64,000 nt of DNA from Roseovarius sp. (GTDB lineage Bacteria > Pseudomonadota > Alphaproteobacteria > Rhodobacterales > Rhodobacteraceae). This document shows positions 9,044-59,995 of the stretch, piece after piece. The notes under the pieces are model-generated. The model was not told the DNA's origin. It saw nothing but the letters and a program-made list of their open reading frames with translations, and ran no database searches. Position numbers and translations under genes: made by a program. The DNA is taken from contig NZ_JAUCYU010000001.1 of the NCBI RefSeq assembly GCF_030373445.1, forward strand, positions 372,001 through 436,000, read 5' to 3'. The stretch's first letter is position 1; each line of letters opens with the position of its first letter.

Positions 9044-11668
9044 TCAGGCAACCCCGACCCGCTTCCGCTGCATCGTGTCGTAATCCCGCAGAAGCCGCGC
9101 CTCGTAGCGCTTCAGGCAATGCCGCGCCGTATCGCCCATGTGCCGCGGTGCGCTCCGTAGCTCCGGGAACAGCCCGAACAGCTCCTCCCGCGCCTCCTCG
9201 CAGATCGCGCTCAGGCCCACGTCCCCGGCATGGAAACTCTCCGTGGCGATGCCCTCGGCATAGATCACCTCGTGATGGTCGAACATCACGTGGATATAGG
9301 TCACCTCCGGCATCTCCCTGACCTTCACGTCGGCATCGTCGACAAGATGCTTGGCCGCCACCAGCACCTCGTCCTGCCCGAACAGCAGCTGCGCCTGGTA
9401 GCCCGCGAACAGGATCCGGTGCTGCGGCGACACCAGCAGCCCGGTGCGCGAGCCGTCCATCACGTTCGGCGCCACCATCACCGGGGCGAACCGGCCCCGC
9501 CCCGGCACCGTGCGCCGGCCGATCCACCGGATCGGCCGCAAGCCGCTGTCCCGCGTCACCACCCGGTCGCCGATCTTCAGGCTCTCGATCGGCCGCTCGC
9601 CGACCTCCGTCAGGATCATCGTGCCCGGCGTGAAACAGATGATGTTCTCGATCTCCGAGAACTCCACGAACGTCCCGTCGGCCATCGTGAAGTTGCCCGA
9701 CAGCCCGGCCGCGTTGTCATCGGTGTTGGTGAAGGTGATGTCGTCATAGGTCACGTCCGGCGTCAGAACCAGCGTGTCGCCGCCCGTCTCGTCCCCCTCG
9801 CCGCCGGTGATGGAAATCGAATCGTTGCCCGTGCCCGTGGTATCAAGGTCGGCCAGCTCGAACCGGTCGTCGCCGTCGCCGCCCTCCACCGTGTCGCCCT
9901 GGTCGACGGTGATCGTGTCGTTCCCGGCCCCGCCAAGGACAAGGTCCGCCCCGTCGCCCCCGTCAAGGATATCGCCGCCCGTGTCGGTATCCGGGCCGCC
10001 GGCGATCCCCGTCACCGTGCCGCTCACGTTATCGACCAGAAGGTCGGTGCCCCCGGTATTGACGATCTCGATGGTGATCGGCTCGCCGTTCAGGCTCGGG
10101 TCGGAATACCCCTCGCTGCTGACCGTCACGGTCTGCAGCCCGTCGATATCCCCGGTCGTCCCGCTCTGCGTCCCGATCAGCGTGTCGCCGGCATAGATGT
10201 TGACCGTGTAGCTCACCGACCCGGCATAGGTCGCGTCACCGAGATCGACCTCGAACTCGTAGGTCTCGCCGTCGGTATACTCCTGCGTCAGCGTCTGGCT
10301 CAGCGTGTCGCCGTTGGCATACAGGAAGGCGACGTTGCTGCCGTCGATATCGCTTTCGTCGATCTGCCCCGAGGTCGGGTTGAAATCGCCCACCTCCGTG
10401 CCGCTCGTCTCCCAGCCGGGCGTGCCCTCCGACCAGCCGCCATCGCCGTGGCTCGTCTGCTCGAAACTGCTGTTGACGATATCGATCGGCGCCGAACCGG
10501 TGGTCAGCGTATCGTCCCCGCCAAGGATCGTGTCGTTCCCCGCCCCGCCGTGGATCTCGTCCGAACCGAGGTTGCCGACAAGGTAATCGTTCCCCTCGCC
10601 GCCCTCGATCGTGTCGTCGCCATCGCTCCGGCCCTGCGCGGTGAAATGCACGTCGGTGACCCAGATCACCTGCCCGCTGCCGCCAAGCTGGTCGTAATCC
10701 ACCTCGACATAGGCCACCGGCCCCTCGATCTCGACCAGCAGCGAACCGTTGGCCCCGGTCGAGCTCTGCGACCCCTCGCCATCGACGAATGGCGACGTGC
10801 CCGTCTCGGTCACGCCCTGGTAGGTGACCGTCACGTCAAGCTCGTTGCCCTCCTCGTCATAGGCCCGAACGGTGATCCCGTCCTCCCAGCCGCCGCTGCT
10901 GCCCGACTGGTCGACATCGTTGATCCGGAAGCTGACATCGGTGACCTCGTCCTCGAAGCCCGACCCCTCGACCGCCGAGAAATCCATCCGCAGCGTCGCG
11001 GTATCCCCCGCCGTGCCACCCCCGCGCAGTTCGACCGAGGAATTGCCGTCGAACGGCTCGCCCGTGCCCACGTACTGGCCGGTCGTCGTCTCGACATTGG
11101 CGCTCTGGCCGTTGCCCTCGTCGGTATAGGTGACGGTCACGTCGATGCCGCCGGTATCCTGCGTGAAGCCGCTGCCGATGCTCTGGCCGTCACTGCCGGC
11201 CGCGCTCCAGTCGAGGAACAACTCGGTATCCTCGGCACTGACCCCGCCGGTGATCCGGTCGTCGCCCTCGCCGCCGATCAGGCTGTCGCCGCCGCCGCCG
11301 CCGCCGTCGATCGTGTCATTGCCGATGCCGCCGTCGATCGTGTCGGCGCCGTCCTCGCCATCCATCACGTCGCCCCGCGCGGTGCCGTCCAGCACGTCGC
11401 CGCCACCCCCGCCATAGGCCACCATGAAGTAATCGAGCTGCGTGCCGCCGCCGAGATTGGCATCCGTCCCGGTCACCCCGGCCTCGCCGACCGTGAAGCT
11501 GTCAGACCCGTCGCTGATGGTGATCACGCCGGTCGCGGCGTCGACATCCACCGAATACCCCGGCGGCAACGCCGAGAAATCCAGCCCGTGCCCGGCCGCG
11601 CCTTCGCTGATCCCCGACCAGAAAGCGGCGCTGTCCCAATTCTCTGTCGTGACCACGTAGACGGTCAT
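9044..11668 (-). CDS. RTX-like calcium-binding repeat protein with C-terminal Hint domain
   Basis: Predicted secreted or surface protein of 874 aa. The ATG at 11668 is chosen because GAGG lies 6 bases upstream and it matches the usual N-terminus (MTVYVVTTENW). Glycine/aspartate nonapeptide repeats of the hemolysin type (for example DGEDGADTIDGGIGNDT) lie near residues 85-140, 350-390 and 565-610, separated by beta-sandwich-like regions. From Cys678 (ICFTPGTMI) a Hint domain follows: KIGDRVVTRDSGLRPIRWIGRR, then PQHRILF. This Hint module is common in Rhodobacteraceae. Autoprocessing and type I secretion are inferences, since no ABC exporter is adjacent. The ligand or target is unknown. Confidence 0.85.
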   Translation of the reverse strand: MTVYVVTTENWDSAAFWSGISEGAAGHGLDFSALPPGYSVDVDAATGVITISDGSDSFTVGEAGVTGTDANLGGGTQLDYFMVAYGGGGGDVLDGTARGDVMDGEDGADTIDGGIGNDTIDGGGGGGDSLIGGEGDDRITGGVSAEDTELFLDWSAAGSDGQSIGSGFTQDTGGIDVTVTYTDEGNGQSANVETTTGQYVGTGEPFDGNSSVELRGGGTAGDTATLRMDFSAVEGSGFEDEVTDVSFRINDVDQSGSSGGWEDGITVRAYDEEGNELDVTVTYQGVTETGTSPFVDGEGSQSSTGANGSLLVEIEGPVAYVEVDYDQLGGSGQVIWVTDVHFTAQGRSDGDDTIEGGEGNDYLVGNLGSDEIHGGAGNDTILGGDDTLTTGSAPIDIVNSSFEQTSHGDGGWSEGTPGWETSGTEVGDFNPTSGQIDESDIDGSNVAFLYANGDTLSQTLTQEYTDGETYEFEVDLGDATYAGSVSYTVNIYAGDTLIGTQSGTTGDIDGLQTVTVSSEGYSDPSLNGEPITIEIVNTGGTDLLVDNVSGTVTGIAGGPDTDTGGDILDGGDGADLVLGGAGNDTITVDQGDTVEGGDGDDRFELADLDTTGTGNDSISITGGEGDETGGDTLVLTPDVTYDDITFTNTDDNAAGLSGNFTMADGTFVEFSEIENIICFTPGTMILTEVGERPIESLKIGDRVVTRDSGLRPIRWIGRRTVPGRGRFAPVMVAPNVMDGSRTGLLVSPQHRILFAGYQAQLLFGQDEVLVAAKHLVDDADVKVREMPEVTYIHVMFDHHEVIYAEGIATESFHAGDVGLSAICEEAREELFGLFPELRSAPRHMGDTARHCLKRYEARLLRDYDTMQRKRVGVA

Positions 11669-15321: not shown

Positions 15322-15343
15322 GTCCCGGCCCCCGCGCCGGGAC
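15322..15343. repeat. dispersed hairpin repeat B, copy 1
   Basis: GTCCCGGC / GCCGGGAC arms (8 bp) with a C-rich loop. Copies 2 and 3 are at 48956-48977 and 59938-59959. In each case a GTAG-headed repeat follows within about 65 bases. Confidence 0.75.
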
Positions 15344-15358
15344 CTCGCGCCACCAGAG

Positions 15359-15379
15359 GCCCCGGGTCAAGCCCGGGGC
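15359..15379. repeat. dispersed hairpin repeat D, copy 1
   Basis: GCCCCGGG-TCAAG-CCCGGGGC, a perfect 8-bp hairpin. The identical hairpin is at 59975-59995, again between a B repeat and a GTAG-headed repeat. Confidence 0.75.
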
Positions 15380-21085: not shown

Positions 21086-21107
21086 CCGTTTTCCGCGCGG
21101 AAAACGG
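21086..21107. repeat. perfect 22-bp palindrome P1
   Basis: Half-site CCGTTTTCCGC followed by its exact reverse complement, with no loop. Confidence 0.95.
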
Positions 21108-21109
21108 TA

Positions 21110-21129
21110 TGGAAAATGCGCATTTTCCA
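21110..21129. repeat. perfect 20-bp palindrome P2
   Basis: TGGAAAATGC followed by its exact reverse complement, 2 bases after P1. Confidence 0.95.
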
Positions 21130-21133
21130 GCCC

Positions 21134-21153
21134 CGGAATTTGCGCAAATTCCG
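21134..21153. repeat. perfect 20-bp palindrome P3
   Basis: CGGAATTTGC followed by its exact reverse complement. Confidence 0.95.
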
Positions 21154-21178: not shown

Positions 21179-21198
21179 CGGAAAATTCGAATTTTCCG
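21179..21198. repeat. perfect 20-bp palindrome P4
   Basis: CGGAAAATTC followed by its exact reverse complement. Confidence 0.95.
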
Positions 21199-21221: not shown

Positions 21222-21304
21222 CCCGCCCCCCGTTGCGCCCGACACAACATCTCGCATGTTGCGCCCGGAACGCCACATCAACCATCGCCCTCACAGCCCC
21301 CCGC

Positions 21305-21332
21305 ACCGACGCGATACCGACAAGATACCGAC
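21305..21332. repeat. three ACCGAC units with 11-bp period
   Basis: ACCGAC at 21305, 21316 and 21327, the last two as GATACCGAC. The array at 55929-55979 has the same unit and period. Confidence 0.85.
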
Positions 21333-21447
21333 GTCCCCTCCCCTTCAAAACAACGCCGTTAACCATGATTCGCGCCGCATCGCAGAATCCGCCGCCGTCA
21401 CCATTCCCTCTTCCGCCCCCCGCCGCCGCTTGCTATCGCTCTCTCCC

Positions 21448-48955: not shown

Positions 48956-48977
48956 GTCCCGGCCCCCGAGCCGGGAC
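48956..48977. repeat. dispersed hairpin repeat B, copy 2
   Basis: GTCCCGG...CCGGGAC hairpin, 24 bases after the last paa-cluster gene. It could act as its transcript end. Confidence 0.75.
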
Positions 48978-55844: not shown

Positions 55845-55865
55845 CGAAGTCTAGAAAAGACTTCG
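55845..55865. repeat. inverted repeat Q1
   Basis: CGAAGTCT-AGAAA-AGACTTCG, 8-bp perfect arms. Confidence 0.85.
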
Positions 55866-55868
55866 CCC

Positions 55869-55889
55869 CGATATCTTTTCAAGATATCG
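55869..55889. repeat. inverted repeat Q2
   Basis: CGATATCTT-TTC-AAGATATCG, 9-bp perfect arms, 3 bases after Q1. Confidence 0.88.
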
Positions 55890-55928
55890 CCCCCTACCGC
55901 ATCGCCCGCCACATTAACCCGGCCCGGC

Positions 55929-55979
55929 ACCGACCCGCGCACCGACAAAATACCGACGTGATACCGACGCGATACCGAC
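55929..55979. repeat. five ACCGAC units with 11-12-bp period
   Basis: ACCGAC at 55929, 55941, 55952, 55963 and 55974 (spacings 12, 11, 11, 11). The last three read TACCGAC and the last two ATACCGAC. Confidence 0.88.
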
Positions 55980-56125
55980 ACCCGGTTTTCCCGCCATTTC
56001 AGCCTGTTAACCCCGATTCGACCACCCTCTCCCCATCCCGTCCTCCGCACCGCCCTTGTCCCGGCCCGCCGGCCCTCGTATCTATGGGTCAACACGAAAC
56101 GAAACCCGAACTTCGGAGAGATCAC

Positions 56126-59937: not shown

Positions 59938-59959
59938 GTCCCGGCCCCCGAGCCGGGAC
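59938..59959. repeat. dispersed hairpin repeat B, copy 3
   Basis: GTCCCGGC...GCCGGGAC hairpin directly after the SDR stop. It begins a B-D-A composite. Confidence 0.78.
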
Positions 59960-59974
59960 CCCGAGCGACCAAGG

Positions 59975-59995
59975 GCCCCGGGTCAAGCCCGGGGC
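59975..59995. repeat. dispersed hairpin repeat D, copy 2
   Basis: GCCCCGGG-TCAAG-CCCGGGGC, identical to 15359-15379. Confidence 0.78.

Follow-up and report, generated by a model that had tools for sequence, protein, structure and literature searches.

Two intergenic gaps of the window (the whole 64,000-nucleotide stretch of Roseovarius DNA analysed here) carry similar sets of short repeats. We asked what kind of element they form and whether the neighbouring genes explain it. A sequence-only reading had described both gaps as one three-part architecture of inverted repeats, a phased ACCGAC array and GTTAACC-nn-GATTCG. All of these parts are present in both gaps, beyond what chance would give. 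In locus 1, ACCGAC occurs at 21305, 21316 and 21327 (an 11-bp phase), with GTTAACC at 21358 and GATTCG at 21367. In locus 2, it occurs at 55929, 55941, 55952, 55963 and 55974 (steps of 12, 11, 11 and 11), with GTTAACC at 56006 and GATTCG at 56015. The pattern ACCGAC-n5-ACCGAC has five overlapping matches in the window, all inside the two arrays and none on the other strand. A profile search of the window returned the two arrays as strong matches, the third-ranked match having an E of 0.14; Rfam at gathering scores gave two tRNA matches and nothing else. The features are as follows.

21086-21107, 21110-21129, 21134-21153 and 21179-21198, no strand: four perfect palindromes of locus 1, neighbours and not element parts; three also occur at L009
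21232..21255, + strand: GTTGCGC...CAACATCTCGC module of locus 1, also in L001, L009, L011 and overlapping loci, common to some other long host copies
21303..21334, + strand: core array of locus 1, first three repeats only (profile R1, positions 1-32 of 52, 34.7 bits, E 5.5e-10)
21358..21372, + strand: optional right flank of locus 1, GTTAACC-at-GATTCG (motif counts and positional enrichment)
55845-55865 and 55869-55889, no strand: two inverted repeats of locus 2, neighbours and not element parts, absent from the relative G016 at the same site; the second also occurs at L035
55914..55919, + strand: optional left flank of locus 2, TTAACC (from the sequence; arrays of the named set have an excess of TTAA at 1-50 bp upstream)
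55929..55934, + strand: extra ACCGAC of locus 2, 12 bp upstream of the array (from the sequence)
55939..55989, + strand: core array of locus 2, four 11-bp repeats GCACCGAC/ATACCGAC and a TTTT tail (profile R1, 55.9 bits, E 1.3e-16; this array, L003, is one of the 65 sequences in the profile, so the score is partly by construction)
56006..56020, + strand: optional right flank of locus 2, GTTAACC-cc-GATTCG (11 exact host-genome copies versus 0 in the control; positional enrichment)

We wondered which of these parts define the element. When eight GTTAACC-nn-GATTCG copies of the host genome were compared, the part they had in common was the ACCGAC array. We aligned 65 arrays, taken from 81 filter-passing copies of the host genome and Roseobacter-group records. 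The repeated core spans 44 bp and consists of four direct repeats of 11 bp each, GCACCGAC-n3-(ATACCGAC-n3)x3, often followed by a T-rich tail, with which the element is roughly 50 bases long. The third repeat is the least variable (ATACCGAC, 0.98-1.00 per column), a constancy that is partly by construction because the search pattern for copies consisted of two such repeats. The aligned copies form no palindromic recognition site but four direct repeats, set head to tail every 11 bp as in OmpR/PhoB-type boxes. Some long host-genome copies share further sequence. The inverted repeats differ between the two loci, and some reappear elsewhere. At the ybaB site of G016, the closest relative examined, the array is kept and the inverted repeats are missing. 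A composite of inverted repeats, array and flank was rejected because the inverted repeats are not common to the copies compared and are missing from G016 at ybaB. Thus, the array is the constant part of the architecture, the GTTAACC/GATTC flank is real but optional, and the inverted repeats do not belong to it. The palindromes of both loci look like a separate dispersed family, three recurring at L009 and one at L035.

The sequence-only reading had suggested a search for further copies. The host genome (4.80 Mb in 18 contigs) contains 171 matches to the pair ATACCGAC-n3-ATACCGA versus 0 in the control, which merge into at least 87 elements, and 11 matches to GTTAACC-nn-GATTCG versus 0 for the reversed control. 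Profile searches gave 142 matches in Pseudooceanicola spongiae and at least 150 in Roseovarius nubinhibens. We used 137 of the 142 matches in the former and 125 among the at least 150 in the latter. The Pseudohalocynthiibacter genome (G196, 4.6 Mb) has 26 matches; the 25 listed are all on C1, which was taken as its 3.83-Mb chromosome.

Carriers are unevenly distributed. Exact pair matches were found in 41 of 84 genomes of the host genus (host included); the same scan covered 110 genomes from other genera and gave no match there. In one genome of the host genus, G061, arrays occur at the coordinates that they have in R. nubinhibens ISM (G195), and the genus was accordingly taken to include R. 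nubinhibens. Under strict filters, 50 of the 84 had a profile match at E 0.001 or less and 34 had none, so the system is dispensable or replaceable. Counts per genome in the genus include many of 20 to at least 70 and many zeros, the latter also among one- or two-contig assemblies. A survey of the family with one genome per genus found matches at E 1e-4 or less in 15 of 199 genomes (host included; strict filters, 29 candidates scored per genome). Named records contributed at least 117 loci, mainly from Roseovarius, Pseudooceanicola, Shimia, Salinihabitans, Sulfitobacter, Thalassovita, Boseongicola and Pseudohalocynthiibacter, with a few chance matches elsewhere. These loci are not independent, several records having supplied many. 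Eleven of the 117 were left out as chance matches before the skew, gene-context and orthology counts. Among these, L044, L118, L124, L134 and L153 come from Roseobacter-group or alphaproteobacterial records and four of the five lie inside called genes; L124 is a true P. spongiae copy.

We surveyed six host-genome sites in ten genomes of the genus, where 53 of the 60 possible places could be located. The array was present at all six sites in the close relative G016, at 6 of 21 sites in four other carriers, showing turnover between species, and at none of 26 orthologous places in five zero-copy genomes. A species nevertheless seems to have either the set of arrays or none of it, the pattern that a dependence on a trans-acting factor would produce.

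Copies are spaced more evenly than random (CV 0.55-0.71 versus 0.85-0.99 where a null was run), at intervals of ~25-60 kb in carriers; some of the position lists behind these values are incomplete (matches listed, exact patterns). For the 87 host elements the CV was 0.55 versus 0.85, with 2 gaps under 10 kb versus 11.0 expected. P. spongiae (137 elements) gave a CV of 0.71 versus 0.99 and 15 such gaps versus 36.7 expected, and R. nubinhibens (125 among at least 150 matches) a CV of 0.62 versus 0.97-0.99 and 16 gaps versus 36.6. The 25 listed Pseudohalocynthiibacter copies had a CV of 0.57 versus 0.97, their short gaps being at chance level (1 versus 1.5). Contig 1 of G007 (44 elements, CV 0.74) was measured with no null.

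We then scored the orientation of the arrays relative to replication, placing the origin by parS and the terminus at half a turn. The ACCGAC strand ran against the fork in a ratio of 95:30 among the 125 listed R. nubinhibens copies (p=5e-9). The ori-ter polarity was weaker elsewhere: 84:53 for the 137 P. spongiae copies (p=0.01), where a test with free breakpoints was not significant (37 versus a null mean of 27.6 and maximum of 53); 33:11 for the 44 elements of G007 contig 1 (p=0.001); and 17:8, not significant, for the 25 listed Pseudohalocynthiibacter copies (p=0.11). An R. nubinhibens sample that included weak matches gave 34:19 (p=0.05; 53 of 55 matches used). Restricting the count to the ter half left 70 listed copies in R. 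nubinhibens, 59 of them following the rule, and 63 in P. spongiae, 42 of them doing so.

GC skew gave the same polarity locally, and more sharply. The array strand had negative skew (C-rich, lagging) in 95 of 105 named loci. The five left-out loci named above had values of +0.022 (L044), -0.046 (L118), -0.076 (L124), -0.010 (L134) and about 0 (L153), and the inclusive count is 98 of 110 with L153 not counted. By set, the array strand was C-rich in 23 of 23 host loci, 29 of 30 P. spongiae loci and 37 of 46 loci of the R. nubinhibens sample. The rule holds regardless of genes: it applies to 46 of 52 loci that code mostly on the array strand, to 40 of 43 that code mostly on the opposite one, and to 94 of 106 when third codon positions are scored. 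The skew extends widely to either side of the array and is no local feature of the gap. Agreement from the octamer GGGNAGGG is weaker than from skew: across the named loci the array strand carries 65 copies and its complement 121. Its strand ratio in the R. nubinhibens sample was 253:28, and that of the KOPS GGGCAGGG was 202:16, the highest strand fraction among octamers occurring at least 30 times (L234-L293). In the window, the + strand has a skew of -0.169 and carries 3 copies of GGGNAGGG versus 15 on the - strand, so the + strand is probably lagging; both arrays lie on it. In R. nubinhibens, the region G195:C2 at ~1.61-1.75 Mb has skew and arrays opposite to the present replichore and mixed KOPS (3/0, 1/4, 3/0). 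This block looks like an old inversion, and arrays and skew thus seem slow to follow rearrangements.

In our view, the array most likely represents a chromosome-wide system of polar sites that has not been described before. The earlier suspicion of a replication-linked composite element that the neighbouring genes do not explain is supported by the genome-wide recurrence, the strand polarity and the even spacing. There is, in our judgement, an even chance that the array is a direction-sensing protein-binding anchor site spread over the chromosome. A hypothetical DNA-binding protein would occupy the four repeats head-to-tail, about one DNA turn each; with an 11-bp period each repeat would face about the same side of the helix, and four sites would build a nucleoprotein with a direction. 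Such an anchor every ~25-60 kb might organise, segregate or mark the chromosome relative to fork movement, or follow up replication, and in some copies the optional TTAAC and GANTC flanks could feed in cell-cycle or promoter signals. More tentatively, and with somewhat less confidence than for the anchor itself, we propose a previously undescribed chromosome-polarity system of the Roseobacter group, in which a trans-acting protein would act on tens to over 150 evenly spaced, oriented four-iteron arrays. From the arrays, DNA-bound machinery would be able to tell the direction from ori to ter without recourse to FtsK/KOPS or ParABS, and the set would be gained or lost whole between species. Counting against an anchor are the moderate replichore polarity in P. 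spongiae, the non-significant one in Pseudohalocynthiibacter and the 34:19 ratio of the R. nubinhibens sample with weak matches, the chance-level short gaps in Pseudohalocynthiibacter, the turnover of sites in other carriers, the genus members without a match, the R. nubinhibens matches inside called genes, the divergent and gene-preceding copies of the host sample and some hairpin-capable copies.

We compared the array with known systems. The sites of MatP (matS), Noc (NBS) and SlmA (SBS) number tens to about a hundred sequence-specific sites per chromosome, much like the array. They are palindromic and either confined to or depleted from the ter region, whereas the array consists of direct repeats, is polar and keeps a similar density including ter. 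Its density in P. spongiae is 2.3-3.5 per 100 kb in all bins, and the quartile counts from ori to ter among the 125 listed R. nubinhibens copies are 26, 29, 37 and 33, with neither restriction to ter nor depletion from it in the two species. OmpR/PhoB-family boxes resemble the array in being direct repeats of a 7-bp motif with a 4-bp spacer. These boxes sit in promoters, whereas the arrays of the named records lie mostly between convergent or tandem genes, evenly spaced and polar to replication. For PhoP, a member of this family, PMC4832192 gives direct repeats of 7-bp motifs with 4-bp spacers, an 11-bp period. An OmpR/PhoB-type winged-helix protein would thus fit the array geometry, which is a lead, not an identification. 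A literature search by words and motif letters returned no description of such arrays in the portions of text that it covered. If the proposal is true, an abundant marine group has an unnoticed layer of chromosome organisation, a further polar or architectural site system beside ParABS and FtsK/KOPS whose binding protein could be fished for directly. Because some species of the genus carry the arrays densely and others gave no match, comparing the two would amount to a natural experiment on site function.

The main rival, which is alive, holds that the array is a domesticated mobile short repeat (MITE, REP or an IS200-like substrate) that inserted between genes with a lagging-strand bias and some form of target immunity and is now mostly fixed. 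Biased insertion with immunity could produce the intergenic placement, strand bias, even spacing and patchy distribution, and the long host copies L002 and L009 have 286 bp in common at 84% identity. REP/BIME and MITE-type repeats are intergenic and multi-copy and favour the 3' ends of genes, as the array does. The array differs from them in having no conserved palindrome, in its even spacing and in keeping some of its positions between genera. We compared orthologous places of fetched loci from different genomes. Same-orientation arrays were found in 22 pairs (14 groups) and flipped arrays in 5 pairs (4 groups). In aligned cross-genus pairs, the array was held in place amid diverged intergenic DNA, which argues against mobility. 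The array had changed orientation independently in four cases, and in three of them the sign of the local skew had changed with it, which suggests maintenance and again speaks against a mobile repeat. No clean insertion junction or target duplication was seen at four aligned sites, although the intergenic DNA there is too diverged for such traces to show clearly, and the copies have no common hairpin, folding z-scores being mostly near 0. We consider this explanation unlikely, while ranking it ahead of those that follow. If it were true, the array would illustrate with unusual clarity how a repeat can spread with a replication bias while avoiding its own copies and then be retained for a long time.

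An origin from plasmids or phages was rejected because the plasmid and phage collections gave no credible array match: searches returned either nothing or weak matches of 24-25 bases (E about 1) to unrelated organisms, and their short queries and BLAST filtering may hide weak copies. The plasmid collection includes one Pseudohalocynthiibacter plasmid. In IMG/VR, 48 loci had the pair pattern and nine scored above 10 by weight matrix. The contigs L172 (~7478), L183 (~7970) and perhaps L166 (~8355) carry true-looking arrays with matrix scores of 72, 53 and 42, which may be host DNA or prophage flanks. In the viral contigs L163 (~9999-10050) and L171, TACCGAC is repeated four times at an 11-bp period; the spacers vary, and the repeats overlap a small ORF at its end.

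The array could also be a polar replication or repair site, such as a site of fork pausing or restart or a Chi-type recombination hot spot, instead of an architectural anchor. A polarity independent of genes and a similar density from ori to ter are what such a site might display. However, the 30 of 125 listed R. nubinhibens copies that oppose the rule are awkward for a fork barrier, and Chi-type motifs are 5-8 bp long and far more numerous than the array. We regard this reading as rather improbable.

The sequence-only reading had taken GTTAACC and GATTC as CtrA-type and CcrM signals, which would make the element a cell-cycle promoter. We determined the position of these motifs in 109 named-record loci (the P. 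spongiae loci L204-L233 were left out of the flank-position and folding counts). TTAAC occurred 34 times at 50-74 bp after the array start versus 0-7 in the other downstream bins, and GANTC 32 times at 75-99 bp versus 1-8. TTAAC was also raised upstream of the arrays. The flanks thus stand at a fixed distance from part of the arrays, in line with the exact motif copies of the host genome; they are missing from many copies, however, and R. nubinhibens has few, with 5 TTAAC and 3 GANTC in the peak bins over 33 copies. TTAA(C) half-sites and GANTC do not accompany every copy, as they would in a CtrA/CcrM promoter element. Gene context differed between sets. In the host sample of 23 loci, 8 of which were retrieved via the GTTAACC-GATTCG motif, 13 copies with both flanks could be classified; 10 of them stand upstream of a gene on the array strand, at a median of 123 bp, as the sequence-only reading would lead one to expect. 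In the named records, such a gene follows 34 of 86 copies overall; the share is 5 of 21 for copies with both flanks and 25 of 49 for those with neither. A promoter role is thus unlikely for most copies and open for the flank-bearing host copies, where a lineage-specific promoter use is possible. As a general role, a promoter was rejected by the gene context of the named records and R. nubinhibens; it also leaves the even spacing and the replication polarity unexplained. A flank acting as a control element is conceivable for part of the host copies but not supported as a general role, and a CtrA/CcrM-type promoter appears a distinctly improbable account of the array.

Slightly less probable still is a transcription terminator or other RNA element at gene 3' ends. 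Copies are mostly intergenic, and convergent gaps are favoured. The 86 named copies with two classifiable neighbours comprised 31 convergent, 49 tandem (28 with the array strand and 21 against it) and 6 divergent cases, versus 20% convergent, 52% tandem and 28% divergent of the intergenic length in the same loci; in this set, scored with a codon-based gene caller, 2 further copies lay inside called genes and 19 at locus edges. Of 40 classified copies in 1.2 Mb of R. nubinhibens sequence, 24 were convergent and 2 divergent, with convergent gaps accounting for 18% of intergenic length (gaps at least 60 bp long). Called genes contained 11 of the 53 matches in this sample, 86% of the DNA being coding. 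Of 21 classified copies in the host sample, 6 were divergent and 13 had a gene downstream on their own strand, though the named copies as a whole do not take the promoter position of OmpR/PhoB-type boxes. A few copies do form terminator-like hairpins (L024 and L281, z about -4), but most fold no clearly better than shuffles: z fell below -2 in 0.05 of 105 named, 0.13 of 23 host and 0.27 of 33 R. nubinhibens copies, and was +1.07 at locus 2 of the window. A stable hairpin with a U-tract is therefore not a property of every copy, and the folding z-scores led us to reject an RNA element or terminator as the general reading. The 21 named copies with both neighbours on the other strand and the 6 divergent ones also argue against a terminator, which leaves spacing and replication polarity unexplained.

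Least probable is that the array guides FtsK as a KOPS equivalent: KOPS (FtsK orienting polar sequences, GGGNAGGG) are, like the array, dispersed over the chromosome and strand-polar to replication, and the ter-half counts would suit such a role, but KOPS are 8-mers and more frequent, the far rarer array is unrelated to them in sequence and its consensus contains no GGGNAGGG motif, and the canonical GGGCAGGG is separately present in R. nubinhibens at higher polarity (with GGGNAGGG also biased in the window as expected), so FtsK is unlikely to read the array and this candidate was rejected.

Besides the two loci, the window contains three near-identical hairpins, GTCCCGGCCCCCG(C/A)GCCGGGAC, at 15322-15343, 48956-48977 and 59938-59959. 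Two of them are followed by GCCCCGGGTCAAGCCCGGGGC, at 15359-15379 and 59975-59995.
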